Origin: Promicromonospora sukumoe 327MFSha3.1
Lineage (GTDB): Bacteria > Actinomycetota > Actinomycetes > Actinomycetales > Cellulomonadaceae
Length of the DNA stretch: 64,000 bases
Assembly: GCF_000385135.1 (NCBI RefSeq)
Contig: NZ_ARQM01000015.1
Span: 1 to 64,000 of the forward strand
Reading direction: 5' to 3'
Numbering within the stretch: the stretch's first letter is position 1; every line of letters begins with the position of its first letter. The position numbers and the translations under genes are program-made. Below, in pieces: positions 1,440 through 22,028 of this stretch. Under the pieces are notes generated by a model that ran no database searches, was not told where the DNA came from, and was given only the letters and a program-made list of their open reading frames with translations.

Positions 1440-2459
1440 TCAGCAGCGCTTGGCGCGCAGCGACCGGATCTCGACGTACGACCGCTCGGCGTTGCCGAAC
1501 GAGTCGACCGGGAAGCCCGGCGCGGCCACCGAGGCGGCGTTGTCCTGCTCCCAGATGCCGTGCCGCCGGCCCGAGCCCGCGAGCGCCGACAGGAACTCGG
1601 TGTACGGCAGGTCGCCGGCCCCGAACTCCACGATGTCGTAGCCCCCGGTGTTCGCCGGGTTCGCGTCGCCGTCCTTGAGGTGCAGGAGCGGGTAGCGGTG
1701 CGGGTTGCGCTTGACGTAGTCCACCGGCTCGAAGCCCGGGTAGCGGTGCTTGCCCACGAACGCCCAGTAGACGTCCATCTCGAGGAAGACCTTCCTCGGG
1801 TCGGTGTTGTCGTAGAAGACGTCGTAGAGCCGGACGTCCGGGTCGTCGGTCGCGAAGCTGAACTCGCCGTCGTGGTTGTGCTGGTAGAACTTCAGGCCGC
1901 GGGCGCGGGCCGCCGCGCCGAAGCCGTTGAACTGCTCGGCGGCGGCGAGGTAGCCGGCGACCGTGCGGTCGTTGGTCGGAGCCTGCGCGGTGCCGACGTG
2001 CTCCATGCCGAGGGTCTCGGCGATGTCGAGCTCCTGCTCCATGTTGTTGGCGAAGTCGGAGATCCCGCGGTGGGAGCCCACGGCGCGCAGGCCGTTGTCG
2101 TCCAGCAGCTGCCGGATCTCCTGCGGGGTGATCGCCCCGACCTGGCCCTGCGTGTAGCCGGCGAACTCGACCTCGGCGTAGCCCATGTCGGCGAGCCGCT
2201 CGAACACGGTGCGGAAGCCGAGCGAGGAGACCTTGTCCCTGATCGAGTACAGCTGGATGCCGATGTGGCCTGCGGGCACGAGCACGCGGCCCCCGCCCTT
2301 GCCGGCGGCCGCTGCCCCGGTCGCCGCCGCCGGGGCGAGCGTCGCCGCGGCGGCGCTGCCCGCGAGACCGGCACCGGCCAGCGTTGCCGCACCCACGGCC
2401 ACGGTGCCGCCGGCCAGCCTCAGAAAGTTCCTGCGGTTGACGTCAGTGCGTGATTCCAT
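1440..2459 (-). CDS. Tat-exported sugar isomerase/epimerase-like TIM-barrel protein
   Basis: 339 aa. The N-terminus carries a twin-arginine signal (NRRNFLRLAGG, residues 9-19) followed by an Ala-rich hydrophobic stretch to about residue 45, so the protein should be exported folded. The rest is an AP-endonuclease-2/xylose-isomerase-like barrel: 'GIQLYSIRD' opens it, and 'QHNHDGEF', 'EMDVYWAF', 'LLHLKDGD' and 'GIWEQDNA' supply the usual His/Asp/Glu metal-ligand positions. Homologues are named sugar phosphate isomerases, but an exported one would not see sugar phosphates. Members of this superfamily act as 3-keto-glycoside lyases or hydratases, which fits the neighbours. The ATG shares one base (TGATG) with the stop of the upstream dehydrogenase gene, so translation is probably coupled. 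The exact reaction is inference. Confidence 0.85.
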   Translation of the reverse strand: MESRTDVNRRNFLRLAGGTVAVGAATLAGAGLAGSAAAATLAPAAATGAAAAGKGGGRVLVPAGHIGIQLYSIRDKVSSLGFRTVFERLADMGYAEVEFAGYTQGQVGAITPQEIRQLLDDNGLRAVGSHRGISDFANNMEQELDIAETLGMEHVGTAQAPTNDRTVAGYLAAAEQFNGFGAAARARGLKFYQHNHDGEFSFATDDPDVRLYDVFYDNTDPRKVFLEMDVYWAFVGKHRYPGFEPVDYVKRNPHRYPLLHLKDGDANPANTGGYDIVEFGAGDLPYTEFLSALAGSGRRHGIWEQDNAASVAAPGFPVDSFGNAERSYVEIRSLRAKRC

Positions 2460-5122
2460 CACTGCTCTCCTTCGGTCCGAGCGGCCCCGGTCGGGCCGGT
2501 CGAGTTCTGTGCGGCGGCCGGGGGCGTGCCCACGCCCTCGCCAACCATGGTGAGCGCGTCGAGGTCGAGGCCCCCGGTCGCGGTGATGTAGAGCGTCCCG
2601 GTGTCCGACCGGTCGCGGAAGGACAGGGCGACGTCCTTCCACGTGCGGGCGTTCACCTTCGCCGTGGCGAACGGCTTGGCCTTGGGCGAGCCCCAGCGGA
2701 GCTCGATCTTGCCCTTGCCGCGCACGGTCGCCGTCGCACTGTCGATCCCGGCGAGGCTGACGCGTTCGAGGGCGACCGAGTCCTTCTTGGCCAGTCCGGT
2801 CACGTACGCGCCGGCCGAGGCCGCCTCGTCCTCGACCACCTCGACGCCGGTGAGCTCGCCGTGCTCGGCCTGCTGCAGCTTGGGGTTCAGGCGCAGGGTG
2901 GCCTCGCCGGCGGCCGGCGGCAGGCCGTTGGCCCCGTTGTCGGTGTAGGTGATGACGACGGCGCCGTACAGGTGCGCGCCCGCTCCGTGCTCCGGGGAGT
3001 TGGGGTCGGTCGGGAACACGCCGGTGCAGCCCGTGCCCGAGACCTCGGGGTGCGCGTGCTCGTCGTGGCCCAGGCCGTAGGACCAGGCGACCCGCTCGCA
3101 GACGGTCTCGGTGCCGTCCTCGGCGTCGTTCGTGGTCACCTCGAAGGCGACCTCGTCGCCCCAGTCGAAGAACCCGCCGTCGGCCGGGAAGTCGACGGTG
3201 ATCTCGGGCGCCTCGTTGCCGACGCTGATCGACGTCGAGGTGAGCGCGCGCTTGCCGCTGCCGTCGGTGACCCGCAGGCGAGCGGTGTAGACGCCGAGCT
3301 CGGTGTAGGTGTGGGTGACCTGCGGCCCGGTGAGGTCGAAGGTGCCGTCGCCGTCGATGTCCCACTCGTAGGTGAGCGCGTCGCCGTCCGGGTCGCTGGA
3401 GGCCGACGCGTCGAGCTCGACCTCGACCGGCGCGGACGTGGACGACTCCGGCGTCGCCGTGAACTGCGCCTGCGGCGCCTTGTTCCCCTCGGCGTGGTCG
3501 ATGCGGTAGAGCCCGGAGTCCGGGTTCTGCCGGAAGAACCCGTCGCCGTACTCCAGGACGTACAGCGAGCCGTCCGGGCCGAACTCCAGGTCGATCGGGT
3601 TGTCGTTGATCGGCATGCCCGCGGCGGTGAGCGCCGAGTTGGGGAAGAAGTCCTCGATCTCCCCCACGTCGAACGTGGACCAGTCCACGCTGAACGCGGC
3701 GAGGTAGTCCTGCGAGAACTCGCCGAAGAACGCCTTGCCGTCCCAGTACTCCGGGAGCTTGCCGGGCGCCGTGCTGTCGGCGTCGTAGTGGTAGACCGGG
3801 CCGCCCATCGGGGCCTGGCCGCTGCCGGAGCCGAAGTTGACGAGCTCGTCGCGCGGCTGCTGGCCCGGCTGGTCGCCGTAGTACAGGGTGGCCGCCCGCG
3901 ACGGGGGCAGGTCGGTCAGGCCCGTGTTCCAGCGCGAGTTGTTGACGGGTGCGGCGCAGTCGAAGAACTCGCGCGGCGTGGCGGTCTCGAAGTTCCACTC
4001 GTTGTAGGCGGCGTTCGGCCCGTGGCAGTACGGCCAGCCCGCGTTGTGCGGGTCGTCGAGGCCCACGGCGTTCCACTCCACGTAGCCCATGGGGCCGCGG
4101 TCCGCGTTCGCCGCACCGGCGTCGGGCCCGTAGTCACCCCAGGTCAGGGAGTTGGTCTCGGGGTCGACCTCGATGCGGAACGGGTTGCGCACGCCCATCA
4201 CGAAGATCTCGGGCCGCGTGTTCTCGGTGCCCGGGGCGAACAGGTTGCCCGCGGGGACGTCGTAGGTGCTGCCCTCCCCCGGTGGTGTGCCGGCGGGGAT
4301 CTCGTCCTTGACGTCGATCCGCAGGATCTTGCCCCGCAGGTCGTTCGTGCTGCCCGCCCCGCGTCGCGAGTCGAAGCCCGGGTTCATGTTCGGGGCGTCG
4401 TTGTTCGGGGCGTAGCCGTTGGCGCCCGGCGTGCCGGCCGGGGTGTTGTCGCCGGTGGACAGGTAGAGGTTGCCCTCGCCGTCGAAGTCGATGTCGGCAC
4501 CGACGTGGCAGCACTGGCCGCGCTGCACCTCGATGTCGAGGATCGGCTGCTCCGAGTCGAGGTCGAGCGCGTCGCCGGTCCAGGTGTACTTGGCCAGGCG
4601 GTTCACGCCCACCCACTGGTCCCAGTAGCTCTCGTCCTCGCCCGCGGGCAGCGTGTTGGGCGCGTTGCCCGCCGGGGTGTCCGCCGCGCCGTCGCCGTCG
4701 GCGTCCCGGGGCGCGTACACGAGGTAGACCTCGTTGCTCTCCTCGAAGTCCGGCGCCAGGGCGATGCCCTGCAGGCCGTCCTCGGAGTTGGCGTAGACGT
4801 CCAGGGTGTTGGTCACCTTGGTGACGCCGGTCGCGGGGTCGGTCACGCGCACCTCACCGTTGCGCGCCGTGTGCAGCACCCGGAGGTCGGGCAGCACCGC
4901 CATGTCGATCGGCTCGCCGACGTCCTTGGTGAGCAGGATCTTCTCGTAGTTGGCCCAGTCGGTGTCGGCCGCCGCGGCGGCCTCGCCGTCGTGCTCGTCG
5001 TGCCCGGGGTGGGCGGACGCCGCCGGCATGGCGACGAGCGCCGTGCCCATCAGGGCGGCCGCCGCGAGCGCCGCGAGCGTTCTCTTTCGGCGCGCGTGCG
5101 CGCGCGTCTCGATAGTCTTCAT
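2459..5122 (-). CDS. secreted sugar dehydrogenase-like propeller protein with PKD and CBM6-like regions
   Basis: 887 aa. A Sec signal peptide (1-37) ends at 'ASAHPGHDEHD'. Residues about 55-540 form a soluble glucose/sorbosone dehydrogenase-type beta-propeller: 'QCCHVGADIDFDGEGNLY' carries the His equivalent to the catalytic base of PQQ glucose dehydrogenase, and 'GVRNPFRIE' the Arg of the cofactor site. A PKD domain follows (about 547-632, SDPDGDALTYEWDIDGDG), then a region with 'GGFFDWGD' and 'LGHDEHAHP' (640-735) that recurs in the 1868-aa protein, then a CBM6-like C-terminus (745-887). The role inferred is extracellular oxidation of sugars or glycosides; the acceptor and the presence of PQQ are unknown. 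A GAGGAG site lies 11 nt before the ATG. It is cotranscribed with the Tat isomerase. Confidence 0.85.
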   Translation of the reverse strand: MKTIETRAHARRKRTLAALAAAALMGTALVAMPAASAHPGHDEHDGEAAAAADTDWANYEKILLTKDVGEPIDMAVLPDLRVLHTARNGEVRVTDPATGVTKVTNTLDVYANSEDGLQGIALAPDFEESNEVYLVYAPRDADGDGAADTPAGNAPNTLPAGEDESYWDQWVGVNRLAKYTWTGDALDLDSEQPILDIEVQRGQCCHVGADIDFDGEGNLYLSTGDNTPAGTPGANGYAPNNDAPNMNPGFDSRRGAGSTNDLRGKILRIDVKDEIPAGTPPGEGSTYDVPAGNLFAPGTENTRPEIFVMGVRNPFRIEVDPETNSLTWGDYGPDAGAANADRGPMGYVEWNAVGLDDPHNAGWPYCHGPNAAYNEWNFETATPREFFDCAAPVNNSRWNTGLTDLPPSRAATLYYGDQPGQQPRDELVNFGSGSGQAPMGGPVYHYDADSTAPGKLPEYWDGKAFFGEFSQDYLAAFSVDWSTFDVGEIEDFFPNSALTAAGMPINDNPIDLEFGPDGSLYVLEYGDGFFRQNPDSGLYRIDHAEGNKAPQAQFTATPESSTSAPVEVELDASASSDPDGDALTYEWDIDGDGTFDLTGPQVTHTYTELGVYTARLRVTDGSGKRALTSTSISVGNEAPEITVDFPADGGFFDWGDEVAFEVTTNDAEDGTETVCERVAWSYGLGHDEHAHPEVSGTGCTGVFPTDPNSPEHGAGAHLYGAVVITYTDNGANGLPPAAGEATLRLNPKLQQAEHGELTGVEVVEDEAASAGAYVTGLAKKDSVALERVSLAGIDSATATVRGKGKIELRWGSPKAKPFATAKVNARTWKDVALSFRDRSDTGTLYITATGGLDLDALTMVGEGVGTPPAAAQNSTGPTGAARTEGEQ

Positions 5123-5290
5123 TCGTGATGCAGCTCCTCGTCGAGTTGGTCACGCCGACCGGGCCTCGTTCGCATCCCATTCGTCCGGGGCCCGGTCTTC
5201 ATGCGGTCCGGTGCCGTACGGCGACACCGGGGTGGTGCGGGTAGCTCTGTTCCTTGCCTCCCAGTCAGCGCGCTCGCCGGCGCGCGGGGT

Positions 5291-6292
5291 TCAGCGGGTC
5301 GAGAAGGCGGCGTCGAACGCGGAGTCCGGCGCGTCGTACGCGTGGGAGCGTACGAACTGGAGGGCTTCCGGAGCGCCCACGAGGCGGTCCATGCCGGCGT
5401 CCTCCCACTCCACGGAGATGGGGCCGTCGTAGCCGATGGTGTTGAGCATGCGGAAGGCGTCCTCCCACGGGACGTCGCCGTGCCCGGTGGAGACGAAGTC
5501 CCAGCCGCGGCGGGGGTCCGCCCACGGCAGGTGGGACGACAGGCGGCCGTTGCGGCCGTTGGTCATCCGCTTCTTCGTGTCCTTGCAGTCCACGTGGTAG
5601 ATCCGGTCCTTGAAGTCCCAGAGGAAGCTGACCGGGTCGAGGTCCTGCCAGACCATGTGGCTGGGGTCCCAGTTCAGCCCGAAGGCCTCACGGTGGCCGA
5701 TCGCCTCGAGTGTCCGGACGGTGGTCCAGTAGTCGTAGGCGATCTCGCTGGGGTGCACCTCGTGGGCGAACTTGACCCCCACCTCGTCGAAGACGTCGAG
5801 GATGGGGTTCCAGCGGTCGGCGAAGTCCTGGTATCCGGCCTCGATCGCGGCGTCGGAGACCGGCGGGAACATCGCCACGTACTTCCAGATCGCGGAGCCG
5901 GTGAACCCGATGACGGTCTTGACGCCGAGCTTGGCGGCGAGACGCGCGGTGTTCTTCATCTCCTCCGCGGCGCGCTGTCGCACGCCCTCGGGGTCGCCGT
6001 CGCCCCAGACGCGGTCGGAGACGATGTCGCGGTGGCGCTGGTCGATCGGGTCGTCGCAGACGGCCTGGCCCTTGAGGTGGTTGGAGATCGCCCACACCTT
6101 GAGGCCGTGCCGCTCCAGCAGCTCGAGGCGCCCGGCGACGTACTCGTCGTCGTCCCAGCGCCACGGGTCCAGGTGGTCGCCCCAGCAGGCGAGCTCGAGC
6201 CCGTCGTAACCCCATTCGGACGCGAGGCGTGCCACCTCCTCGAGCGGTAGGTCGGCCCACTGGCCGGTGAACAGGGTGATGGGTCGTGCCAT
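5291..6292 (-). CDS. cytoplasmic sugar isomerase/epimerase-like TIM-barrel protein
   Basis: 333 aa with no signal peptide, from the same AP-endonuclease-2/xylose-isomerase-like superfamily as the Tat-exported protein but from a different subfamily. '[16 protein letters not shown]' opens the barrel. Likely metal and substrate residues sit in '[11 protein letters not shown]', 'GLNWDPSHM', 'YHVDCKD', '[11 protein letters not shown]' and '[10 protein letters not shown]'. The chosen ATG has an ideal AGGAGG eight bases upstream. An upstream in-frame ATG at 6340 would overlap the previous gene's stop (ATGA) and add 16 residues with no family similarity. It would act on an imported sugar, possibly a 3-keto product, before the Gfo/Idh/MocA step; the reaction is unproven. 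Confidence 0.87.
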
Positions 6293-6336
6293 GGTGCTTC
6301 CTCCTGTAGGTGACGATCCGGCGTCTCCGGTCGTGC

Positions 6337-6957
6337 TCATCGGGGTTCGGTCCGCGGCGTGCGCCTGCGCAGGACGACGGCGGTCACCGCTCCTGCGGCC
6401 ACGAGCGCGCCGAGCACCCAGCCGGCCCAGACCGGCAGACCGCTCGACGCCGGCGAGACGTCGTCGGCCTGCGCTGCCGTGCCGGCGCCGTCCGCTCCGG
6501 CGGCCCCGGTGGTGGTATCGGCCGACGGCGAGTCGGCCGACCCGGCCTCGGACCGCTCGGGCTCTGCTTCCTCGGCGACCGGCGGTGCCACCACGTCGAC
6601 CTCGGTCTCGGCCTTCGCCTTCTTCGGCTCCTTCACCTGCGCGGTCACAGTCCAGTGCCCCTCGTCGAGCACCGCGGGTTCCGAGCGGTACCAGCCGACG
6701 CCCTCGGACGCCGAGACAAGGGTGATCGGTCCGACCTCGTCACCGGCGTCGGAGACCGCCCGCACCTCCACCACGGCCGACTCCTCGACGGGGTGCTTGT
6801 CGCCCGCCCAGACCAGTGCGGCGGAGATGCCGCCGGCGCCGTCCGTGCCGAGCTCGATGTCGACCTTGCCGCCGTGCGCGGCGGCCGGAGCCATGGCAGG
6901 CACGGCAAGCCCGAGCGCCAGCAGGAACGCCGCGCCGAGGCGGGTGAACTGTTTCAA
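6337..6957 (-). CDS. small membrane-anchored extracellular protein
   Basis: 206 aa from a TTG start, preceded by GAGAGGA six bases upstream; the frame stays open further upstream but without a site. A signal peptide ends near 'APAAAHGGK'. A beta-rich domain follows (about 30-120: '[12 protein letters not shown]', '[13 protein letters not shown]', '[23 protein letters not shown]'), resembling small Ig-like or CopC/FixH-like folds, and then an acidic Ala/Ser linker. One C-terminal transmembrane helix ('[17 protein letters not shown]') ends in a basic RRRTPR tail. Function is not recognised. It lies between the large secreted dehydrogenase and the cytoplasmic isomerase, so it may be an accessory or tether for the secreted oxidation system. 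Confidence 0.7.
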
Positions 6958-7029
6958 GATCGTTCCTCTCCGATTCACAGGGGCCCGGGGGTCACCGGCT
7001 CTGCCACTGACCCCCGGCCAGGGTGTGAC

Positions 7030-7060
7030 GGGGCGTGCACCGGTAGCCGGTGCACGCCCC
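7030..7060 (-). terminator. hairpin terminator after the giant ThuA-dehydrogenase gene
   Basis: A perfect 14-bp inverted repeat (GGGGCGTGCACCGG) with a TAG loop sits 7 bp past the stop of the 1868-aa gene, between it and the small membrane protein gene, and separates them into two transcripts. Confidence 0.7.
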
Positions 7061-7067
7061 AGGTCCG

Positions 7068-10000
7068 TCAGTCGCACCTCTCTTCGACGGTCACGATGAC
7101 GTAGGCCTTCCCGGACGGGCTGAGCACCCAGTCCCCGACCGGCGTCAGCTTCGTGTCCTTGTTCGGCGTCGCGATCACCCGGTAGTCACCCGGGGCGAGG
7201 TCGCCCAGGTCACGCGGCTTGCCGTCCGCCTCGCCGTCGACCCAGTTGTGCACGACGTAGCTCTTGACCCCGGGGAGCTCGACCGGGTCGATCGATCCCC
7301 CGGCGTCGCACGACGCCGGCGTCACCACGACGGCGGGCGTGCTCGGGTCGGGGCACTCGGGCTCCTCGAGCGTCACGAAGAGCACGGCGAGGCCGTTGGC
7401 GTTGACCTTCCAGCCGTCCTCGGCGACGAGGACGTACCCGTCGGCCGGCCGGGCCGCGACCCGGTACCTCCCGGGAGCCAGGTCGTCGAGGTCGGTCACG
7501 GCGTCACCGGCGGCGCCGTCGACCCATTCCCGCACCACGTAGGACCGCACCCCCTCCACGTCGACCGTGGAGAGCGCACCGCCGGTCACGACCTCGTTTC
7601 CGGACCGGTCGTAGGAGCACGTCGGCTGGACGACCTCGACCTTCGGCGTCGCCTCGCTGACCGCCGGCTCCGCGATGGTGAACTCGAGGGTCTCGCCGAC
7701 CACCGTCTCGCCGTCGGCCGACGCCCGCACCTGGACGGTGTGGGCGCCCGGTGTCGAGACCTCGACCGGCGCCGTGTACTCGGTCCAGCCGCCGTCGTCG
7801 ACGTTGACCTCCCGGTACACCGTCGCGCCGTCCGGACCGCCCGTGGTCTCCACCGTGACCGTGACCGGTCCGAGCCACTGCCCGTCCGGGCCGTCCGGCT
7901 CACCCGGGGACAGCGCACCGGTCACCTGGAGCGGGTCGGCCGCGCCCACCACCCGGAAGTGGTCGAACGACGCCGTGGCCGCCGACTGCTGGGAGGCGCC
8001 CAGCGCGTACAGCCCCACCCGGGCGTCCTGCAGCCCGTCGTGGGTCACCGGATCGGCGAGCGCCGTCCAGTCCTCACCGTCCGCACTGTACGCACCGGTG
8101 AACGTCGACCCCTCCTTCGACAGCCGCAGGTGCCACACGGCCGACGTCAGCTCGTTCGCGTTCGGCTGCGGGTCCTGCACCACGGAGTCGACCTCGCTGC
8201 GCAGCTCGATGCGCTGTGCGACGGCCGCTCCCGCCGCGTTGTCGGTGACGAGGTCGAGCTTGACGTAGTTGTCGTCGTCCCCGTACACGATGAGACCGCC
8301 CTGCTGGTACTGCTGGTCGAAGTCCGACCCGTCCACCAGGGTCTCGACGGTCCAGTCGTCCTCCGGCAGGTCCTGCACGACGATGTTCGGCGTGCCGGTG
8401 TTGCTGCCGGTGTAGATGTCCGTGGCCGTCGTGTCGATCTCGAGCGCGCCGCCGGTCACGCGGTGACCCGCCGGGTCCTCGCGCACGATGTCCCACCGGC
8501 AGCCGTCGAGCCCGTCACCGTCGAACTCGTCGTCCGGGGCGGGAGCCTCGGCCGTGTCGTCCGGGGTGATGTGGAACCAGTCGAACTCGGCGTCCACGAC
8601 GTCCGCGGCCGAGCCGGCGCCCGCGAGGGCGAAGAGCCCGATCCGTGGGTCGTCGATGCCGGCGAGCGACTTGGTCTGCGGCATGGCCGTGAAGGTCGAC
8701 CCGTCCGGCGAGTACGACGCCGTCAGGTCCTCGCCGTCGCTGCTGGACAGGCGGACGTACACGGTGTCCGGGTACGCCTGCCCCAGGGCAGCGGTGTTGG
8801 AGTCCCCGACCTCGTTCGGTGTGCCGTCCTCCTCACGGATGTACTGGAAGATGCGGGTCGCCGGGTCGGCTGGCGCCGAGCGTCCCTGGATCACCATCTT
8901 CGCGTAGTTGTCGGCGTCGCCGTAGACCACCAGGCCGGCCTGCTGGTACTGGGCGTAGGCCGGGATCGTGACCTTCGCCGTCGCGGTGAACGGGCCGTCC
9001 GGCAGGTCCTGCAGGACGATGTTCGGGACGGTGGAGTTACCCGTCCCGTAGAAGTCCGCGGCGGCCGCCGGGATCGTGAGCGTCCCGTCGGCGACCCGCA
9101 GGTCCTGGTTGCGGTCGAGCACGGTCCAGCGGTCCGGGTCGACGTCGTCCCCGAGGAAGTCGTCCGAGCGACCCGACAGGCACAGGTCCGGCTCCGCGAC
9201 GACCCCGGTGACCTCGACCATGACGTACTCGACCGCGTAGGCGCCGCCCTCGTCGGTGACGCGCACCTGGAGGCGGTAGGTCCCCGGCTCCTCGTAGGTG
9301 TGCTCGAACGACTGGGTGCCGTCGACGAACCCGTCACCGAGCCCGGCGTCCCAGGCGTAGGTCAGGTCGCCCGAACCGTCCGGGTCGGTGGCCTCTGCCG
9401 TCGCGGTGACGGTCAGGGGCGCGTCGCCCGCGACCGGGTCGACCGTCAGCGTGACCTCGGGCCGCTCGTTGTCGGTCACCCCGCGGCCCTCGATCTCCAT
9501 CCAGTTGGCATTGACCCCGCCGGAGAGCAGGACGAAGTGGAGCGAGCCCGAACCGGACGGGACGTCCGTCAGCGCGGTGGCGACGTCGGTGTACTGCTGC
9601 CAGCCGCCCGTGTCGGGCACCGTGATCCGGCCGATCTCCGGGCCGTCAGGTGCGTCCCAGCGCAGCGACACCTCACCGCCACCGGCCCCGGAGGCCGCAC
9701 GCAGCGAGATCTCGTCGACGTTCGCCAGGCTCACCGGTTCGTGCGCCCAGTAGTCACCGGGCTCGATGTACCCGATGTTCTGGCCGCCGCCGGCGGTGTC
9801 GCCCGTCTCCTCGATCTGGACTCCCGGGTCACCCGCCCCCTCACCGATGCCGTCCACGCGGCCGGTACCGGTGAAGAACTCCGACTGGACCAGCTTGGGC
9901 TGCAGCACCTGCAGGTCGGTCGCCGTCAGCGGTGCGCCGGCGGCGCCGCCGTCGTCCGTGTAGAAGCCCTCGATCACCCAGAAGATGTTCGACTCGATGC

Positions 10001-12774: not shown

Positions 12775-12794
12775 TTGTGCTGGTCCGGGTCCGA

Positions 12795-14048: not shown

Positions 14049-15101
14049 TCAGGAGTCGAAGCCGATGGGCAGGTACTCCTCGACGTTCTCCTCCGTGACG
14101 ACGGGCGCGTAGAGCTGCACGGTGCGGGGGACGCCGATGGAGGCGAGATCGCTCACGGTCTTGTTCTGCGCGATCAGGCGGGCGAACTTGACGCCGTCCG
14201 CGGCCTGCGTGGACGGGTAGATGACCGTCGCCTTGACGACGCTCTCCGGGTCCTGGATCTCCTCCATCATGTTGTTGGAGCCCGCACCGCCGACCAGGAA
14301 GAACTCGTCGCGGCCCGCGTTCTCGATGGCGGCCAGGACGCCGATGCCCTGGTCGTCGTCGTGGTTCCAGATGGCGTCGATCTTGGGCTCGGCGGACAGC
14401 AGGTTCGCCGTCTGCTCCTCGCCGGACTCGACGGTGAACTCGGCCGCGACGCGGGCGTCGACGTCGAGCCCGCAGTCGTCGAGGGCGTCCGCGAAGCCCT
14501 TGCTGCGGTCCTGCGTGAGCGGGAGCGAGTCGATGCCGGCGATCTCGGCGACCACGGCGTCCGGGTTGTCGCCGAGCTGCTCGCAGATGTAGGTGCCGGC
14601 GCTGACGCCCATGCCGTAGTTGTCGCCGAGCACGGTGGCCCGGGCGGCGAACGGGCTGCTGAACTCGCGGTCCACGTTGATCACGGGGATGCCGGCCTCC
14701 ATGGCCTCCAGGGCCACGTCGGTCAGGGCGGCGCCGTCGAACGGCAGGAGCACGATCGCGTCGACGCCCTGGTCGATGAAGCCCTCGATCTGGCTGATCT
14801 GCACGTTGACGTCGTTGGTGCCCTCGGCGACCTGGAGGTCGACGTCCTCGTACTTGTCCGCCTCGGCGCGGGCGGCGCTGGTGATGGCGCCCATCCAGCC
14901 GTGGTCGGCGGCGGGGGCGGAGAACCCGATGACGACCTCGTCACCGGGCTCGTCGTTCTCGGTCGTCGTGACGGGGCCGGTGGCGGCTGTCTCCTCGTCA
15001 CGGGGCTCGTTGCTGGTGCAACCGGCGACGACGAGCGCCGCGCAGGCCGCGGCGATGAAGGCGCCGGAGACCCGGCGCGTGCGAACGATGGACGAGGTCA
15101 T
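14049..15101 (-). CDS. ribose-type ABC transporter substrate-binding lipoprotein
   Basis: 350 aa. The lipobox 'VVAGC' (Cys about residue 28) marks a diacylated, membrane-anchored lipoprotein. The mature part is a periplasmic-binding-protein-like type I (RbsB-family) fold: 'VVIGFSAPAADHGWMG', 'GVDAIVLLPFDG', 'GIPVINVDREF' and 'IWNHDDDQGIGVL' are typical sugar-contact strands. GGGAG stands seven bases before the ATG. It sits downstream of the permease and ATPase genes, the reverse of the common order. The ligand is probably a mono- or disaccharide, perhaps a 3-keto derivative made outside the cell. Confidence 0.9.
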   Translation of the reverse strand: MTSSIVRTRRVSGAFIAAACAALVVAGCTSNEPRDEETAATGPVTTTENDEPGDEVVIGFSAPAADHGWMGAITSAARAEADKYEDVDLQVAEGTNDVNVQISQIEGFIDQGVDAIVLLPFDGAALTDVALEAMEAGIPVINVDREFSSPFAARATVLGDNYGMGVSAGTYICEQLGDNPDAVVAEIAGIDSLPLTQDRSKGFADALDDCGLDVDARVAAEFTVESGEEQTANLLSAEPKIDAIWNHDDDQGIGVLAAIENAGRDEFFLVGGAGSNNMMEEIQDPESVVKATVIYPSTQAADGVKFARLIAQNKTVSDLASIGVPRTVQLYAPVVTEENVEEYLPIGFDS

Positions 15102-15166: not shown

Positions 15167-16144
15167 CTAGGTGGTCGAGACGCGCTCGCGCGAGGCGAAC
15201 CACTGCTGGAGCAGCACGGCGCCGACGATGATCGCGCCCTTGGCGATCGCCTGGACCGAGCTGTCGATGTTGTTGAGGACGAACACGTTGGTGAGCGTCG
15301 AGAAGATGAGGACACCGAGGACGGTGCCCGTGACAGTGCCTCGGCCACCCGCCAGCAGCGTGCCGCCGACGACGACCGCGGCGATGGCGTCGAGCTCGTA
15401 GAGCGAGCCGTTCGTGGAGGACCCGGCGGTGGTGCGGGCCAGGATCATCACGCCGCCGATACCCGCCGCCAGGCCGGAGAGGCCGTACAGGTACAGGGTG
15501 TGGCGCTTGATCTTGATGCCCGCCAGACGGGAGGCCTCGGCGTTGCCGCCCACCGCGACGGTGCGGCGGCCGAACGTGGTGCGGTTCAGCAGGAACCAGC
15601 CGGCCGCGGCGACCACCACGAAGATCCAGACGATCACCGGGAGGCCCAGCGGCTTGGCCTGGAAGACGTCGAAGAACGCGTCCACCTCGACCACCTGGGT
15701 CTGCCGGCCGGCGATGATCTCGGCGAGGCCGCGGGCCGCGGCCAGCATGGCCAGCGTCGCGATGAACGCCGGGACCTTGCCGTACGCGATGAGCAAGCCG
15801 TTGATGAGGCCGGCACCGAGTCCGACGGCCATGGCGGTGACAGCGATGACCCACCAGCCGTAGTCCTCGGCCGCGTACTGGGTCGCCAGGGTGGAGGCCC
15901 AGATCGACGCCAGGCCGAGCACGGAGCCGACCGAGAGGTCGATGCCACCGGAGGTGATGACGAATGTCATGCCGATGGCCACCACACCCCACACCGCCGC
16001 AAGGCTGAGGATGGTGGTGAGGTTGCCGAAGCTCCAGAACCGCTCACCGCCGGTCGCCACACCCACGACGATCAGCAGGACGAGGGCGAGCACGAGGCCG
16101 CCCATCCGCAGGGCTGGGCCGGTGAGGCCCGATCGTGCGCTCAC
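15167..16144 (-). CDS. ribose-type ABC transporter permease
   Basis: 325 aa, RbsC/BPD_transp_2 family, with about 8-10 hydrophobic segments. 'VITSGGIDLSVGSVLGL' and 'GRRTVAVGGNAEASRLAGI' are the family signatures, the latter being the cytoplasmic loop that contacts the ATPase. The GTG start overlaps the ATPase stop by four bases (GTGA), so the two are translationally coupled. It forms the inner-membrane channel of the importer. Confidence 0.92.
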   Translation of the reverse strand: MSARSGLTGPALRMGGLVLALVLLIVVGVATGGERFWSFGNLTTILSLAAVWGVVAIGMTFVITSGGIDLSVGSVLGLASIWASTLATQYAAEDYGWWVIAVTAMAVGLGAGLINGLLIAYGKVPAFIATLAMLAAARGLAEIIAGRQTQVVEVDAFFDVFQAKPLGLPVIVWIFVVVAAAGWFLLNRTTFGRRTVAVGGNAEASRLAGIKIKRHTLYLYGLSGLAAGIGGVMILARTTAGSSTNGSLYELDAIAAVVVGGTLLAGGRGTVTGTVLGVLIFSTLTNVFVLNNIDSSVQAIAKGAIIVGAVLLQQWFASRERVSTT

Positions 16145-17670
16145 GCCACACTTCCTTCCATGACCAGGTCGAGCACGGCGTGCTCGTCGATTTCGCGGGC
16201 GGAACCCTCGTGGACCGCCTTGCCGTCGGAGATGACCAGCACGCGGTCCGCGAGGCCGAGCACCTCAGGGATCTCGCTGGACACGACGATCACGGCGGCG
16301 CCGTCGTCGGCCAGGCGGCGGATCAGGTTGTAGATCTCGGCGCGGGCGCCGACGTCGACGCCCCGGGTGGGCTCGTCGAGCAGCAGGACGCGGCAGCCGT
16401 GCACGAGCCAGCGTGCGAGCAGCGCCTTCTGCTGGTTCCCGCCGGACAGCGTGCGGGCGTTCCGGTTGACGCCGGCGGGCCGCAGGTCGAGAGCCTCGAC
16501 CTGCTCGCGGGCCGCGGCCCGCTCGGCGCCCTCGTCGAGCAGCCCGCCACGCGCGATGCGCGAGAAGGTGGACAGGGTGATGTTGCGGTAGACGGGCTCG
16601 TCCAGGAGCAGGCCCTGGCTCTTGCGCTCCTCGGGACACAGGCCGATGCCGGCGGTCACCGCGGCGTCCACCGCACCGGAGCGCAGGCGCTTGCCGCCCA
16701 CGCGGACGGTGCCCGACGTCGCGCGCCGGGCGCCGTAGATCGTCTCCAGGATCTCGGAGCGGCCCGAGCCGACCAGGCCCGCCAGGCCGACGATCTCGCC
16801 GGCGCGGACCGTGAGGGAGACGTCGGAGAAGACGTTGCCGAGCCCGAGGCCGTCGACCTCCAGCACCGGGTCCGCGTCCTCGGCCACGCCGGGGCGGTCC
16901 GGGAACGCGTACTCGACGGTCCGGCCCGTCATGAGCTGGATCAGCTCCTTGGTCGGGGTGTCCGCCACGACCAGGCTCTCGGCGACCGTGCGGCCGTCCT
17001 TGAGCACCGTGATGCGGTCGCCGAGCTGCCGGATCTCCTCCAGGCGGTGCGAGATGTAGACGACGGCGACGCCGTCGGCCGTCAGCTCGCGCACGATGCG
17101 GTGGAGGTTGCCGACCTCCTCGGAGTCCAGCACGGCGGACGGCTCGTCCATGATGACGACCCGCGCGTCACGTGAGAGCGCCCGGGCGAGCTGCACGATC
17201 TGCTTGCCCGCGGCGGGCAGCGAGCCGACCTCGCGGTGCGGGGAGATCTCCTTGTGACCGAGCCGGTCGAGGATCTTGCGGGTGTTCCGGGCCGCCTCGG
17301 ACCGGCGGGTGACTCCGCCCGACGCGAGCTCGTGGCCCAGGTAGATGTTCTCGGCGACCGTGAGGCCGTCCACGACGTCGAGCTCCTGGTAGATCGTCGC
17401 GATACCGAGCCGCAGGGCGGCCACGGGGTCCGCGATGACCACCGGCTCCTCGTCGATCAGGATCTCGCCCGCCGTGGGCTGGTGGGCGCCGGCCAGGGTC
17501 TTGATCAGGGTGGACTTTCCCGCCCCGTTCTGTCCTAGCAGGCAGTGCACCTCGCCGGGACGGACCTCGAGGTCCACGCCGTCGAGCGCTCGCGCGCCAG
17601 GGAATTCCTTCACGATGCCACGCATGCGCAGCAGGGGCTGCTCTACCCCGGAGGGGTCCACGTCGACCAT
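16141..17670 (-). CDS. ribose-type ABC transporter ATP-binding protein with two ATPase domains
   Basis: 509 aa, RbsA/MglA-like. Walker A sits in the first half ('LLGQNGAGKST'), with 'VVIMDEPSAVLD' as Walker B. The second half has the family's degenerate nucleotide site 'GLVGSGRSEILE', the signature 'LSGGNQQKALLARWL' and 'LLLDEPTRGVDVG'. The start is the ATG at 17670: the open frame continues upstream but crosses the promoter and operator. It is the first gene of the importer operon, and a promoter overlapped by a ROK-type operator lies directly upstream, facing the divergent ROK gene. Confidence 0.92.
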   Translation of the reverse strand: MVDVDPSGVEQPLLRMRGIVKEFPGARALDGVDLEVRPGEVHCLLGQNGAGKSTLIKTLAGAHQPTAGEILIDEEPVVIADPVAALRLGIATIYQELDVVDGLTVAENIYLGHELASGGVTRRSEAARNTRKILDRLGHKEISPHREVGSLPAAGKQIVQLARALSRDARVVIMDEPSAVLDSEEVGNLHRIVRELTADGVAVVYISHRLEEIRQLGDRITVLKDGRTVAESLVVADTPTKELIQLMTGRTVEYAFPDRPGVAEDADPVLEVDGLGLGNVFSDVSLTVRAGEIVGLAGLVGSGRSEILETIYGARRATSGTVRVGGKRLRSGAVDAAVTAGIGLCPEERKSQGLLLDEPVYRNITLSTFSRIARGGLLDEGAERAAAREQVEALDLRPAGVNRNARTLSGGNQQKALLARWLVHGCRVLLLDEPTRGVDVGARAEIYNLIRRLADDGAAVIVVSSEIPEVLGLADRVLVISDGKAVHEGSAREIDEHAVLDLVMEGSVA

Positions 17671-17676
17671 GTATCG

Positions 17677-17713
17677 AACGTAGTTGGACTTCTGCCGACG
17701 GTCAAGCAAAAGT
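17677..17713 (-). promoter_or_regulatory. ABC operon promoter overlapped by ROK-type operator
   Basis: On the minus strand, TTGACC (17700-17705) and TACGTT (17677-17682) are 17 bp apart, a good sigma-70-type promoter for the ABC operon. A 26-bp site (17688-17713) with half-sites ACTTCTG and CAAAAGT (imperfect inverted repeats, 12 bp apart) covers the spacer and -35. The same site, 22 of 26 bases identical, overlaps the promoter at 22064-22101. Binding here would block RNA polymerase. Confidence 0.7.
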
Positions 17714-17745
17714 CGCGACTTCGCCCGCCATGATTCACTAGAGGC

Positions 17746-18927
17746 ATGGTGGAAGTGGCACGGGAAGTATTTCAGCAGGTACCCAAGGTGTCCGGCGCGG
17801 GCGATATGTTCCAGCTCCTGCGTGATGGAAGACCCCGCACGCGCGCGGACCTCGCGGCCGTCACGGGGCAGGCACGCTCCACGGTGGCGGCGCGGATCGA
17901 CCTGCTCATGGCGGCGGGACTCATCGCGCCCGCGGGCGAGGCGACGTCGACCGGTGGCCGACCGCCCGCGACCTTCGCGTTCGCCCCCTCGGCCCGGGTG
18001 GTGCTGGGGGTGGACCTCGGCGCGACGCACGCGCGGCTCGCCCTGACCGACCTCGCCTCGACCGTGCTGGCGCAGCGCGACCTGCCGCTGGTCATCACGG
18101 ACGGCCCGGACCTCGTGCTCGACCGCGTGGCCGAGAGCGGGGCCGAGCTGCTGCGCGAGGCCGGACGGTCGGCGACGGACCTCGCCGGCGTCGGCGTCGG
18201 CCTGCCAGGGCCCGTGGAGCACGCGACCGGCAAGCCGAACAACCCGCCGATCATGCCGGGCTGGGACAACGCGGACGTGCCCGCGATCCTCGGCGCGCGG
18301 TTCCACGCGCCCGTCCTCGTGGACAACGACGTGAACATCATGGCGCTGGGCGAGCACCGCGCCGCCTGGCCCGACGTGGCCGACCTGCTGTTCGTCAAGG
18401 TCGCCACCGGCATCGGCGCGGGGATCATCGCCGACGGCGCGCTGCGGCGCGGCGCGCAGGGCTCGGCGGGCGACATCGGGCACGTGGCCGTGCCGGGAGT
18501 CACCGACGTCGTGTGCCGCTGCGGCAACGTCGGCTGCCTGGAGGCCATAGCCAGCGGGCAGGCCGTCGCGAGCAGGCTGAACGGCGCGGCCTCGGCCGCC
18601 GACGTCGTCGCCCTGGTGCGGGCGGGCGACGTCAACGCGAGCCAGGCCGTGCGCCAGGCGGGCCGCGACATCGGCGCGGTGCTGGCCACGAGCGTGAGCC
18701 TGCTCAACCCGTCGATGATCGTGATCGGCGGCATCCTGGCCGACGCCGGGGAGCACATCGTGGCGGGCATCCGCGAGGTGGTCTACCAGCGGTCCCTGCC
18801 CCTGGCGACCCAGCACCTGCGGATCGTCACGGCCCGCACCGGCACCCAGGCGGGCGTGCTCGGCGCGAGCGCCATGGCCGTGGACCAGGCCCTCTCCTCC
18901 GACGCGGTGGACCGCCTGGTCGCCTGA
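17746..18927 (+). CDS. ROK family transcriptional repressor
   Basis: 393 aa. An N-terminal winged helix-turn-helix (about 15-65, 'GDMFQLLRDGRPRTRADLA..TGQARSTVAARIDLL') precedes a ROK sugar-kinase-like domain: 'GVDLGATHARL', 'GVGLPGPVEHATG', 'LVDNDVNIMALGEH' and the zinc motif 'CRCGNVGCLE'. The presence of the DNA-binding domain makes it a NagC/XylR-type repressor rather than a kinase. It diverges from the ABC operon, and a palindromic operator lies in the 75-bp gap, so it should respond to the imported sugar. A second operator upstream of the PA14-DUF1080 gene widens the regulon. The ribosome binding site is weak. Confidence 0.9.
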   Translation: MVEVAREVFQQVPKVSGAGDMFQLLRDGRPRTRADLAAVTGQARSTVAARIDLLMAAGLIAPAGEATSTGGRPPATFAFAPSARVVLGVDLGATHARLALTDLASTVLAQRDLPLVITDGPDLVLDRVAESGAELLREAGRSATDLAGVGVGLPGPVEHATGKPNNPPIMPGWDNADVPAILGARFHAPVLVDNDVNIMALGEHRAAWPDVADLLFVKVATGIGAGIIADGALRRGAQGSAGDIGHVAVPGVTDVVCRCGNVGCLEAIASGQAVASRLNGAASAADVVALVRAGDVNASQAVRQAGRDIGAVLATSVSLLNPSMIVIGGILADAGEHIVAGIREVVYQRSLPLATQHLRIVTARTGTQAGVLGASAMAVDQALSSDAVDRLVA

Positions 18928-18942
18928 CCCGGTCCACCACGT

Positions 18943-18982
18943 GTCAGACGCTCAGATCCCTCGGGGGATCTGAGCGTCTGAC
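18943..18982. terminator. bidirectional hairpin terminator
   Basis: A perfect 18-bp stem (GTCAGACGCTCAGATCCC and complement) with a TCGG loop lies between the convergent ROK and PA14-DUF1080 genes. Confidence 0.85.
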
Positions 18983-18992
18983 TTCTGTGGGT

Positions 18993-21900
18993 CTAGCTCA
19001 GGTCCTTGACCCGGACGTCGCGGTAGCTCACCGCCTCACCCTGACCGTGGTTCTGGAGCCCGATGAACCCCTGGGCGAGGTCACGCGCAGGGTCGGTGCT
19101 GACGAAGTCGTTCACCAGCTCACCGTTGAGGATGACCTTGATGGTCTGCCCCTCCACCCGGATCTCGTAGGAGTTCCAGGAGCCGACCGGCTTCAGGGCC
19201 CGCTCCACGGCCTCCGGGTCGGCGCCCTGGAAGGTGTAGATCGCGCCCGTGGTGCGGTCGGGCTCGTCGGTGGCGTCGATCTGGATCTCGTATCCCTGGT
19301 TGACGGCGATCCACGGGTCGTTGCCCGGGTCGGGGAACCCGACGAAGACACCGCCGTTGTCGTCCTTCTTGAGCTTCCAGTCGAGCTTCAGGCTGTACTC
19401 GTTCAGCTCCGTCGAGTGCCAGAGCAGGCCCATGCCCCCGCTGCCGCGCAGGGTGCAGTCGCTCTGTCGGCCGAACGAGCCCGGGCCGGCCATGTTCCAG
19501 CCGTCCAGCGAGGCCAGCGTGCCGTCGAACAGCGCGGTGTAGCCACGCTCGTACCGCTTCGGCGCGCAGATGTCGGCGGCCCCGCCACCGACCTTGAGGA
19601 GGTCAAGGTTGACGTTGCCGTCGTCGTCCTCGTCGTACCGCAGGGTGATGGTGTTGACGCCCTTCTGCAGTCGCAGGTCGCGCGTCGCCGTCGCCCAGGT
19701 CTTCCAGTCACCCGTCGACTCGAGCGCCCACGGCTCGACCTCCTGGCCGTTGACCAGCACCGAGACCGTCTTGGTCCCTTCGAACGGGTTGGGCCCGTTC
19801 GAGTAGCGCAGGCTCACGGGCTGGGTGCCCGCGCGCTTGACGGTGGTGGTGAAGGTCGCGGACGCGCCCACGTCGGTGAAGCCGGCCGCGAACCCGGAGC
19901 CGGAGTAGCCGTTGTGCTCGTTGGCCACGTTCGCGCTGCCGCGGAGCGTCGCCTCCTCGGCCTCCTGGAAACCGGTCGGGGCCTTGTACCCCGGGATCGC
20001 ATTGAGGGTGTACCAGGCCTCGGTGTTCCACAGCTCGCGGCCCTCTGCGTCCGCGAACGGACGCGGGCTGCGCAGGTGCACCACGTAGCCGGGCTGGCGC
20101 CCGTCCACCGTGAGCGTCACCTTCGTGCGGTCGCGGGAGACCTTGGCGTCCGACACGAACAGCTGCTGCTCGTCGACCTTCGGTCCGCCGTAGGCGCGCG
20201 TGGGCACGTAGCGCCAGTGGTCCATGCGGAACGCCGCGTTCGGGTCCTCGGCGATCTTGTCCACCGTCTCCTGCGAGAGCGGCTGCGTGTACTCGACCTC
20301 GAAGCCCTTCTTGGTGACCCGCATCTCGGTCATGTCGAAGGCGTCCTCGCCGTTGGGGCTGAGCTTCTGCAGGCCGTAGCGCAGCTTGCCGGGCTCGCTC
20401 CAGTTGCCGCCCTCGCCGATGCCGCCCACGTACAGGGCGCCGTCGGGCCCGACGACGGTGCGGTTCACGCCCGCCTCCAGGCCGGCCGAGTGCCGGAAGA
20501 CGGCGCCCTGGTACTCGCCGTCGACCTTCTCCAGGAAGCCGCGCTGCAGCCCGCCGTAGGTGACGTCACCGAACACGAGCTGGCCCTCGTACGGGCCGTC
20601 CTCGATCTGCACCGGGGCGCTCGGCGAGTTGCCGATCTCGTTCTGCGGTACCCACAGCGCCGGGGCGGAGACGGGCTTGTCGTCGTACGGGCCGGCCGGG
20701 TTGGTGAAGTGGTTGAAGAACTTGCCCTGCTCGATGTGCACGAGCTTGGAGCTGGGCAGCCAGGCGCCCTGGTTGTCCATCACGAACAGCTCGCCGTCCG
20801 GGCCCTTGACCATGCCGTTCGGCGTGCGCAGGCCGCCGGCCACGAACTCGACCTCGCCGGTCCTGCGGTCGACCCGGATGGCCGTGCCGCGGTTCTCCGC
20901 GGGCTGCGGGTCCGTGGTGGCTCCGCCGTTGTTGATGGCGACCGACAGGTTGACGTAGAAGTACTTGCGGTCGTGCAGCAGGCCGAAGGCGAACTCGTGG
21001 AAGTTGCCGCCGAACGGCCACTCGGCCACCGTGTGGTGGTCGTCGTAGAAGCCGTCACCGTCGGGGTCCGTGAGCTCGGTGAGCTTGTCGCGCTCCGAGA
21101 CGTAGATCGAGTCCCCGATCACGGCGATGCCCATCGGGTTGAACAGGTCGGTGGCGACCTTCTCGTACGTGACCTGGTCCTTCGAGGTCTCGCCGGTCAC
21201 GTTGTCCAGGAGGAAGACCTCGCCGGGCTCCGGGTCCTCGACCCAGCCGCCGGGGCTCACCGAGCCGGACGTGACCACGGCGAGGCGGTCGTCGTCGGTC
21301 CAGTCGAGGCCCGCGACCATGGGCTCGAAGCCGTCGGGCCGCAGGTCCGTGAGGGTGTAGCCCGGGTAGACGGAGTCCAGGCGCATGCCGTCGCCGGCCG
21401 AGTCGTCCTGGCCCTCGCAGTACTTGGTGCCCGGGGCGGTCACGCGCACGACGCCGGCCTCGGTGCTCAGCACGGTGGACGGCACGACGACGAAGTCGCT
21501 GGTGCCCGGCGTGCGCCACTCGAGCTTGAGGATGTTGTCGTTCGTGTTGTCGAAGTACTCGACGCGCAGGTCGTGGTACCCGGCGGTGAGCGCGACGGTG
21601 CCCTCCTTCGACTCCGCGCCGTGCAGACCGTCGTTGTCGATCACCTCGGCGTCGTCGATCACCAGGCGCGAGCCGTCGTCGCTGGTCAGGCGGAACTCGT
21701 AGTTGCCGTCCGCCGGCACCTCCAGGTTGGCCAGCGCGTGCGCGATGAAGCGCTCGCCCATGCCGAAGTCAGCCTCGGTCGAGTAGTCGATCGTGGGCTT
21801 GAGCTGGTCGACGTTCGGCGTCTGGCCCGAACGGAGCGTGCACAGCTCGCTGAGGTCGCGAGCCAGGTCGTAGGTGCGGAGGGTGACGCCCGGTTCCTGC

Positions 21901-22028
21901 GGCGGGAGGTCGTCGACCGCCGCCGTCGCGGCGGGGACCGTCCCCGCGAGCGTGACCGCTGTCAGTGCCACGGCGGTCGCGGCTGCGGCTGCCTGTCTCG
22001 TGCGGGTCTTGGTACCACGTTGACGCAT
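18993..22028 (-). CDS. secreted PA14, dehydrogenase-like propeller, CBM and DUF1080 fusion protein
   Basis: 1011 aa from the ATG at 22028, with GAGGAG five bases upstream; the longer open frame would run through the promoter. Order: signal peptide (1-40, ends near ATAAVDDL); PA14-like domain (about 60-185, 'FRLTSDDGSRLVID'); membrane-bound-dehydrogenase-type propeller (about 200-520, 'GNFHEFAFGLL', 'RTPNGMVKGPDGELFV'); linker; CBM6/35-like domain (about 690-810, 'EAEEATLRGSA'); C-terminal DUF1080 domain (about 825-1011, 'FDGTLASLDGWNM', 'NGGVFVGFPDPG', 'YEIQIDATDEPDRTTGAIYTF', 'GSWNSYEIRVEGQTIKVILNGELV'). DUF1080 proteins include 3-keto-disaccharide hydrolases, so one chain could both oxidise and cleave a bound glycan. 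It is single-gene, monocistronic, with its own operator-covered promoter. Confidence 0.87.
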   Translation of the reverse strand: MRQRGTKTRTRQAAAAATAVALTAVTLAGTVPAATAAVDDLPPQEPGVTLRTYDLARDLSELCTLRSGQTPNVDQLKPTIDYSTEADFGMGERFIAHALANLEVPADGNYEFRLTSDDGSRLVIDDAEVIDNDGLHGAESKEGTVALTAGYHDLRVEYFDNTNDNILKLEWRTPGTSDFVVVPSTVLSTEAGVVRVTAPGTKYCEGQDDSAGDGMRLDSVYPGYTLTDLRPDGFEPMVAGLDWTDDDRLAVVTSGSVSPGGWVEDPEPGEVFLLDNVTGETSKDQVTYEKVATDLFNPMGIAVIGDSIYVSERDKLTELTDPDGDGFYDDHHTVAEWPFGGNFHEFAFGLLHDRKYFYVNLSVAINNGGATTDPQPAENRGTAIRVDRRTGEVEFVAGGLRTPNGMVKGPDGELFVMDNQGAWLPSSKLVHIEQGKFFNHFTNPAGPYDDKPVSAPALWVPQNEIGNSPSAPVQIEDGPYEGQLVFGDVTYGGLQRGFLEKVDGEYQGAVFRHSAGLEAGVNRTVVGPDGALYVGGIGEGGNWSEPGKLRYGLQKLSPNGEDAFDMTEMRVTKKGFEVEYTQPLSQETVDKIAEDPNAAFRMDHWRYVPTRAYGGPKVDEQQLFVSDAKVSRDRTKVTLTVDGRQPGYVVHLRSPRPFADAEGRELWNTEAWYTLNAIPGYKAPTGFQEAEEATLRGSANVANEHNGYSGSGFAAGFTDVGASATFTTTVKRAGTQPVSLRYSNGPNPFEGTKTVSVLVNGQEVEPWALESTGDWKTWATATRDLRLQKGVNTITLRYDEDDDGNVNLDLLKVGGGAADICAPKRYERGYTALFDGTLASLDGWNMAGPGSFGRQSDCTLRGSGGMGLLWHSTELNEYSLKLDWKLKKDDNGGVFVGFPDPGNDPWIAVNQGYEIQIDATDEPDRTTGAIYTFQGADPEAVERALKPVGSWNSYEIRVEGQTIKVILNGELVNDFVSTDPARDLAQGFIGLQNHGQGEAVSYRDVRVKDLS

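Follow-up and report, generated by a model that had tools for sequence, protein, structure and literature searches.

Gut bacteria with gene sets of the BT2156-2160 type, as described by Nasseri and colleagues in 2024, are said to combine relatives of TIM-barrel lyases and hydratases with DUF1080 and Gfo/Idh/MocA (Gfo) enzymes, and oxidation there reportedly proceeds via nicotinamide adenine dinucleotide (NAD) enzymes of the Gfo type. In Agrobacterium tumefaciens, the enzymes GlycDH, AtOGE and AtHYD and a Gfo reductase are encoded in one operon (PMC10628242). A DUF1080 protein has been proposed, from fitness data, as a periplasmic 3'-ketolactose hydrolase (PMC9007349), which gives 3-keto-sugar chemistry outside the cytoplasm a precedent. 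DUF1080 proteins have also been proposed as xanthan-cleaving glycosidases (PMC5673643), and the family may have other activities too. Here we consider an island at positions 1440 to 22028 of a 64,000-nucleotide stretch (the window) from Promicromonospora sukumoe 327MFSha3.1, which is the start of contig NZ_ARQM01000015.1 (C15) in a genome of 6.25 Mb. We give a rough probability of 55% to the reading that the island is part of a regulon for oxidoreductive glycoside degradation, probably controlled by a ROK-family protein, with the work divided across the membrane. That the genes form one unit is well supported by synteny, paralogous loci, domain fusions and a shared operator. The features are as follows.

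1440..2459, minus strand: twin-arginine translocation (Tat)-exported xylose-isomerase-like TIM barrel, predicted 3-keto-glycoside beta-eliminase (RRNFLRL motif)
2459..5122, minus strand: secreted glucose/sorbosone dehydrogenase (GSDH)-like propeller with PKD and CBM6-like domains (CBM6 below cut-off), 887 residues (Pfam GSDH, 91 bits)
5291..6340, minus strand: cytoplasmic TIM barrel, 2-hydroxy-3-keto-glycal hydratase-like (Protein Data Bank (PDB) matches 2zds and 8ro4)
6337..about 6978, minus strand: small secreted protein with a C-terminal membrane anchor, start codon uncertain (alignment, AlphaFold2)
7068..12674, minus strand: secreted ThuA-GSDH propeller-PKD-CBM6-PKD-2xDUF1349/GH43_C2-like protein, 1868 residues (Pfam, propeller-domain model, Foldseek)
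12795..13973, minus strand: Gfo/Idh/MocA dehydrogenase, levoglucosan-dehydrogenase-like (NF052479, PDB matches)
14049..15101, minus strand: substrate-binding lipoprotein (SBP) of a ribose-type ABC importer (Pfam Peripla_BP_4; start from translation)
15167..16144, minus strand: ABC importer permease (Pfam BPD_transp_2)
16141..17670, minus strand: ABC importer ATPase of AraG/XylG type (Pfam; NCBIfam below cut-offs; start from translation)
17688..17713, no strand: operator ACTTCTGCCGACGGTCAAGCAAAAGT between the ROK and ATPase genes (palindrome pattern scan)
17746..18927, plus strand: divergent ROK-family regulator (Pfam ROK, 200 bits)
18993..22028, minus strand: secreted PA14-propeller-CBM35-DUF1080 (3keto-disac_hyd) fusion (Pfam)
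22076..22101, no strand: second operator ACTTCTGTCGGACGTCAAGCAAAAGT, upstream of the DUF1080 fusion (palindrome pattern scan)

An original prediction, made from the letters alone, had listed the gene families of this island, and Pfam scans find each one it named: ThuA, DUF1080, two AP_endonuc_2 barrels, a Gfo/Idh/MocA enzyme, a ribose-type importer and a ROK protein. Its three propellers, two of them with a CCHxG motif, are also present; those in 7068-12674 and 2459-5122 are GSDH domains, and the third, in 18993-22028, is divergent. Of its two barrels, one Tat-exported and one cytoplasmic, both exist, with their placement now corrected: the Tat-exported protein is 1440-2459 and the cytoplasmic one is 5291-6340, in which no signal peptide is apparent to the eye (signal peptides and cleavage sites were called by eye from translations throughout). 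As it had stated, no classical glycoside hydrolase catalytic domain is found in the scanned island proteins, GH43_C2 being an accessory and not a catalytic domain. It had overlooked the small gene from 6337 to about 6978. The right edge that it drew at 22028 coincides with the ATG of the DUF1080 fusion, and the operator starts 48 bases upstream; because this operator overlaps the longer open frame, the start is best placed at that ATG.

Gene neighbourhood and shared operator

Neighbourhoods were compared across several sets of loci. Twelve genus loci, from other genomes of the genus, were fetched around the orthologue of the ThuA-GSDH protein and so were chosen for holding it. Eight further loci bring the family total to 20, 80 named loci were also selected for ThuA-GSDH, and 20 class loci were all picked by GSDH match, four of them for likeness to L154, a paralogous locus in the island's own genome. 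The controls were 36 stretches at fixed positions in 12 one-contig family genomes. Two genomes occur in both the genus and the named sets (L133 = L038, L137 = L039), and several loci are interrupted by contig ends. The exported barrel, the cytoplasmic barrel and a separate GSDH frame are present in all 12 genus loci; ThuA and GSDH in one frame, Gfo, SBP, permease, ATPase and ROK are each found in 11, fused DUF1080 in 10 and the small protein in 8. Each component occurs in 0 or 1 of the controls, except for the permease (2) and the ATPase (12, a common domain). The neighbourhood survey that the original prediction had suggested thus finds co-occurrence outside this strain, at 8-12 of 12 genus loci against 0-2 of 36 controls (12 for the ATPase). 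The eight further family loci all hold the cytoplasmic barrel, Gfo, SBP, permease, ATPase, ROK and small protein, and three have fused DUF1080 and two the exported barrel. Among the 80 named loci we see the ATPase in 46, SBP in 41, permease in 38, ROK in 26, the small protein in 15 and a separate GSDH frame in 12.

Related arrangements recur within this genome and beyond it. The paralogous locus L153 holds a separate GSDH, an exported-type barrel and a PA14-propeller-DUF1080 protein (whose DUF1080 was missed by our own profile and is detected by Pfam), and L154 encodes ThuA, GSDH and DUF1080 in a single frame of 1344 residues. Such three-domain frames are found in 9 of the 20 class loci, seven in the order ThuA-GSDH-DUF1080 and two as GSDH-ThuA-DUF1080, and locus L241 is a compact array that reads ROK-ATPase-permease-SBP-Gfo-cytoplasmic barrel-[GSDH-ThuA-DUF1080]. 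Among named relatives of the ThuA-GSDH protein, those from Promicromonospora kroppenstedtii (97%) and P. panici (93%) are the closest. Strong matches to this query, some over the propeller only, occur in 66 of 150 genomes of the family, and relatives are found in many other actinobacteria, on contigs of Planctomycetota, Rhodothermales and Balneolaceae, and on one haloarchaeal plasmid.

Two near-identical palindromes of the form ACTTYTGY-N10-RCARAAGT lie at 17688-17713, between the ROK and ATPase genes, and at 22076-22101, before the DUF1080 fusion. Scanning the window with up to three mismatches gave two matches, compared with a mean of 0.25 in shuffled sequences, of which 2 in 100 reached two. 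With at most two mismatches there are six places in the whole genome, three of them exact, versus one for the backward pattern. The third exact site (C5:75181) is just upstream of a gene for a secreted AP_endonuc_2 barrel with an F5/8 domain (L225:9255-11051), likely a further regulon member, and a two-mismatch site (C10:1063098) is upstream of a multicopper oxidase. Two further two-mismatch sites were also observed: C10:46765, near an inositol-1-phosphate-synthase-like gene that is followed by an AP_endonuc_2 gene (L226:6594-9924), and C15:267928-267953, on the island's contig outside the window. When at most two mismatches are allowed, 11 of the 12 genus loci have a site, as do 6 of the 8 other loci in the family and one of the 36 controls; the P. 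kroppenstedtii locus L038 has two exact sites.

A refined pattern was then built on the ROK-promoter sites of the two-mismatch scan plus C10:1063098, with this genome's two sites used. It matches 19 places exactly in 13 genus genomes, and its reverse matches none. Thirteen of these places are at the ROK/ATPase promoter (13/13 genomes) and six are directly upstream of a multicopper oxidase gene (six genomes); the DUF1080 site and the C5 site fall outside this count because the refined pattern no longer matches them. The island sites had mostly been seen before refining; the cleanest test comes from the five sites that precede multicopper oxidase genes in other genomes. The regulon is most likely controlled by the ROK protein, whose binding to the operator we infer from its position.

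In L154 the multicopper oxidase, ThuA-GSDH-DUF1080 and plastocyanin-like genes are adjacent, the copper proteins matching Pfam Cu-oxidase_2/3 and Copper-bind. The same adjacency is seen in four loci of other class families, which were picked for having a GSDH match extent and frame length equal to those of L154. Across 163 sequences (the window and 162 loci), all eight multicopper-oxidase matches adjoin a ThuA-GSDH-DUF1080 frame and a cupredoxin frame; these are L154, the four class loci, a control stretch (L173) and two Amycolatopsis loci (L095 and L096). In the Amycolatopsis loci, a single stretch of 22 kb takes in both this copper operon and genes for ThuA-GSDH, an exported-type barrel, a cytoplasmic barrel, Gfo and SBP. 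A second operon with this gene content behind the island's operator suggests that electrons may reach oxygen via copper proteins.

Predicted chemistry of the encoded proteins

The exported barrel (1440-2459) matches PDB entries 8tcd (7e-31) and 8bvk (2e-8) and also aligns with 8tcs and 8tct; we take 8bvk to be AtOGE and the other three to be gut-bacterial lyases. In AtOGE, manganese is bound by His132, Asp163, His189 and, weakly, Glu233, with His134 as the catalytic residue (PMC10628242). All 14 aligned exported-type barrels, 1440-2459 among them, keep the HxH, D, H and E that correspond to these, the alignment comprising 13 of 28 listed profile matches and the operator-linked L225 protein. 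From homology and these residues, the exported barrel is predicted to be a 3-keto-glycoside beta-eliminase. The cytoplasmic barrel (5291-6340) matches 2zds at 5e-169 and, over residues 33-344 of 349, 8ro4 at 3.7e-34. The latter entry is deposited as a 2-hydroxy-3-keto-glucal hydratase, and its E, D and E motifs, assumed to hold ligand residues, are kept, while one His of 8ro4 aligns with an Asp. The DUF1080 domain of 18993-22028 scores 131 bits against PF06439 (3-keto-disaccharide hydrolase; cut-off 26.8), with PDB matches to 3imm, 3s5q and 3h3l.

The Gfo enzyme (12795-13973) scores 366.8 bits against NF052479, levoglucosan dehydrogenase, which is below the equivalog cut-off of 650. Its closest PDB match is 4h3v (624 bits, deposited as an oxidoreductase domain protein), followed by 6a3f (301 bits), presumably levoglucosan dehydrogenase. 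Levoglucosan dehydrogenase is an NAD-dependent C3 oxidase, and therefore some or all of the oxidation could be cytoplasmic. The original prediction had cast this protein as a reductase; a Gfo enzyme is indeed present, and the resemblance leaves a C3-oxidase role for it as well.

The two CCHxG propellers score 91 and 117 bits against Pfam GSDH (PF07995; cut-off 25). The third propeller has FHEF in place of CCHxG and gives no match to PF07995, its one Pfam match being DUF7133, below cut-off. A model of the propeller domain of 7068-12674 has a mean predicted confidence (pLDDT) of 88, and its best Foldseek matches are 2ism (1.8e-20) and 1c9u (3.5e-20), which clearly places the predicted fold within the GSDH family. 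In 152 island-type propellers (147 distinct, in a set that takes in overlapping loci and paralogues), the equivalents of His144, Arg228 and Asn229 are invariant, as is the Pro of the calcium loop, and the Gly that precedes this Pro is found in 145. The propellers look catalytic but not classical, because these residues are kept while an Arg that contacts pyrroloquinoline quinone (PQQ) is lost and PqqE is absent, as detailed below. Their association with ThuA, DUF1080 and the eliminase-type barrel is the one pointer to C3 as the position that they would oxidise outside the cell.

The small protein begins with a likely signal peptide and carries a membrane helix at its C-terminal end. The residue next to the likely cleavage site is a His; this His and a DxH motif are invariant in 17 of 17 aligned sequences (of 32 matches), and the AlphaFold2 model is an Ig-like sandwich. 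In the second GSDH protein (2459-5122), the N-terminal sequence that follows the likely cleavage site is HPGHDEHDG, with HEGHD and HDGHD in relatives; among orthologues in the genus, His comes first in 10 of 11 and HxGH is found in 8 of 11. We note this His-rich N-terminus as a possible metal site. For the small protein, no Pfam family scored over its cut-off, no PDB sequence match fell below an E-value of 0.35, and Foldseek gave nothing at E<=0.001, with FetP, CopC and CrdA among the weak matches. A copper role for the small protein and for the second GSDH N-terminus is suggested because of the invariant His and DxH, the weak fold matches to copper proteins, and the His-first N-termini. The lack of a Pfam family, a PDB sequence match or a significant fold match leads us to reject this protein as a proven homologue of CopC.

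Proposed pathway and rival explanations

In the proposed pathway, ThuA-linked GSDH-like propellers, held on the polysaccharide by CBM6, CBM35 and PKD modules, would oxidise terminal glycosyl residues outside the cell to give 3-keto-glycosides. The Tat-exported barrel would beta-eliminate these to 2-hydroxy-3-keto-glycals, and the DUF1080 fusion might cleave or hydrate other 3-keto-glycosides. Uptake of the keto-monosaccharide or glycal would fall to the ribose-type ABC importer. Inside, the 2ZDS/8RO4-type barrel would hydrate the glycal to a 3-keto-sugar, and the Gfo enzyme would reduce this sugar or else oxidise imported anhydro-sugars at C3. The multicopper oxidase and cupredoxin of the second operon would pass electrons to oxygen. 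An arrangement with an eliminase outside, a hydratase inside and an importer between them would be natural if the imported species is the glycal or the keto-sugar. The original prediction had glycosides oxidised at C3 outside the cell, cleaved, imported and reduced. The logic of that pathway is upheld by homology, catalytic residues, fusions, synteny and the operator, from which we infer the catalytic steps, the substrate and the electron path; its use of the propellers as C3 oxidisers is weakened by their belonging to a family described as oxidising C1, by the loss of the R408-type Arg and by the lack of PqqE.

Several observations weigh against this scheme. An Arg of the R408 type, which we take to be a basic PQQ-contact residue, is found in 0 of 152 island-type propellers and in 25 of 27 classical GSDHs, with gaps in the remaining two; the R148 type is found in 0 of 152 and 27 of 27, the R406 type in 63 of 152 and 26 of 27, and a Q174-type residue in 0 of 152 island-type propellers, with residues of the last blades mapped at low identity by means of a conserved GPDG anchor. 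The best PqqE match in the genome scores 50.6 bits against a cut-off of 381, and PqqE is over its cut-off in 1 of 98 class genomes; PQQ may be taken up from outside. The PqqC model matched nowhere, controls included, and was not used as evidence. The soluble glucose dehydrogenase (sGDH) family is described as oxidising C1, and we know of no propeller of this fold that has been shown to act at C3. In the cytoplasmic barrel, an Asp aligns to a His of 8ro4 on a strand that probably bears ligands. The full set of genes is uncommon among the 80 named loci, of which 26 have Gfo, 22 the cytoplasmic barrel, 15 fused DUF1080 and 9 the exported barrel; just 15 of the 80 have operator sites with at most two mismatches. 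No multicopper oxidase or cupredoxin gene lies in the island itself. A multicopper oxidase is found near two of the 80 named loci, none of the 20 family loci and four of the 20 class loci (the look-alikes of L154), versus 1 of 36 controls, which rules it out as a general partner of ThuA-GSDH loci; the control match is another L154-type operon, and therefore the copper genes are a feature of operons of the L154 type.

We tentatively suggest that a quinoprotein-type propeller, remodelled and joined to ThuA and often also to DUF1080, oxidises C3 and passes electrons to a secreted cupredoxin and multicopper oxidase, so that glycosidic bonds are cut outside the cell by oxidation and elimination, possibly with a different cofactor from classical PQQ or a different mode of binding; this is well short of an even chance. 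It is also rather unlikely, though worth serious attention, that C3 oxidation takes place only inside the cell, on an imported glycoside or anhydro-sugar acted upon by the NAD-dependent Gfo enzyme and the cytoplasmic barrel, while the propellers oxidise reducing ends at C1 and so loosen or tag the polysaccharide. The resemblance of the Gfo enzyme to levoglucosan dehydrogenase and the C1 oxidation described for the sGDH family are consistent with this, as is the way in which the importer recurs together with both cytoplasmic enzymes across the genus and family loci, but it would leave two exported proteins, the eliminase-type barrel and the DUF1080 protein, without a substrate made outside, and would not account for the repeated fusion of ThuA, GSDH and DUF1080 in a single protein. 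If instead the propellers were non-redox modules that bind carbohydrate or protein, like Hedgehog-interacting protein, which has a related fold and is among the profile and fold matches, the exported enzymes would scavenge 3-keto-glycosides made by other microbes. The altered PQQ-contact positions and the lack of a PqqE over cut-off would suit such a role, yet the catalytic His and the Arg-Asn pair, which lie around the PQQ ketones, are kept in all 152 propellers and the calcium-loop Gly in 145, which would be unexpected after loss of function, and we regard the idea as improbable.

The least probable reading, which we regard as very unlikely, is that the system acts on inositols or inososes in place of 3-keto-glycosides. 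Both barrels have weak similarity to iolE, scyllo-inositol dehydrogenase 5ya8 is among the Gfo matches at 202 bits, and the C10:46765 operator site is near the inositol-1-phosphate-synthase-like gene. However, the iolE and inositol dehydrogenase scores are far under the NCBIfam cut-offs, the matches to keto-glucal hydratase and levoglucosan dehydrogenase are stronger, and the carbohydrate-binding modules (CBMs), DUF1080 and ThuA point to glycans.

Elsewhere in the window, a tRNA-Ser (cga) call at 46849-46941 falls within a long open frame (45395-47755; CBM48, weak alpha-amylase matches), and one of these two annotations may be spurious.

Comparison with described systems

In the gut-bacterial pathway, oxidation is reportedly due to Gfo/Idh/MocA enzymes, whereas in this island the GSDH-like propellers are the candidates. 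Levoglucosan dehydrogenase operons are likewise said to pair a related Gfo gene with a barrel gene, and the island's Gfo enzyme falls below the equivalog cut-off for that family. The Agrobacterium operon has in common with the island an eliminase barrel with the HxH/D/H/E residues, a hydratase-type barrel and a Gfo enzyme, but oxidation there is by GlycDH, and the excerpts of that source make no mention of ThuA, a DUF1080 fusion, copper proteins or barrel export (PMC10628242). The LacABC and DUF1080 pathway is alike in that a 3-keto-disaccharide is made, and by proposal cleaved, in the periplasm; LacABC, however, is a three-component membrane-bound dehydrogenase, and Pfam finds no such gene set in the island (PMC9007349). 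The PQQ-dependent sGDH, YliI/Asd and AA12 enzymes share with the island propellers the fold, the catalytic His, the Arg-Asn pair and the calcium loop, whereas the island propellers have lost the R148-, Q174- and R408-type residues and are fused to ThuA and CBMs (PMC6881810). In the open-licence literature, we found no paper that joins ThuA with GSDH or DUF1080, none on an extracellular 3-ketoglycoside dehydrogenase, and none whose title or first lines of abstract name such an island.

If the proposed pathway is correct, it would represent an overlooked form of extracellular polysaccharide degradation that is missed by activity screens for hydrolases. The operator offers a direct handle on the cooperating genes and on the inducing sugar, and with the copper operon the electron acceptor becomes a question that can be put to the test. 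Compared with the closest described systems, what is new here is the propeller-ThuA-DUF1080 fusion family and an operator shared with a multicopper-oxidase operon.

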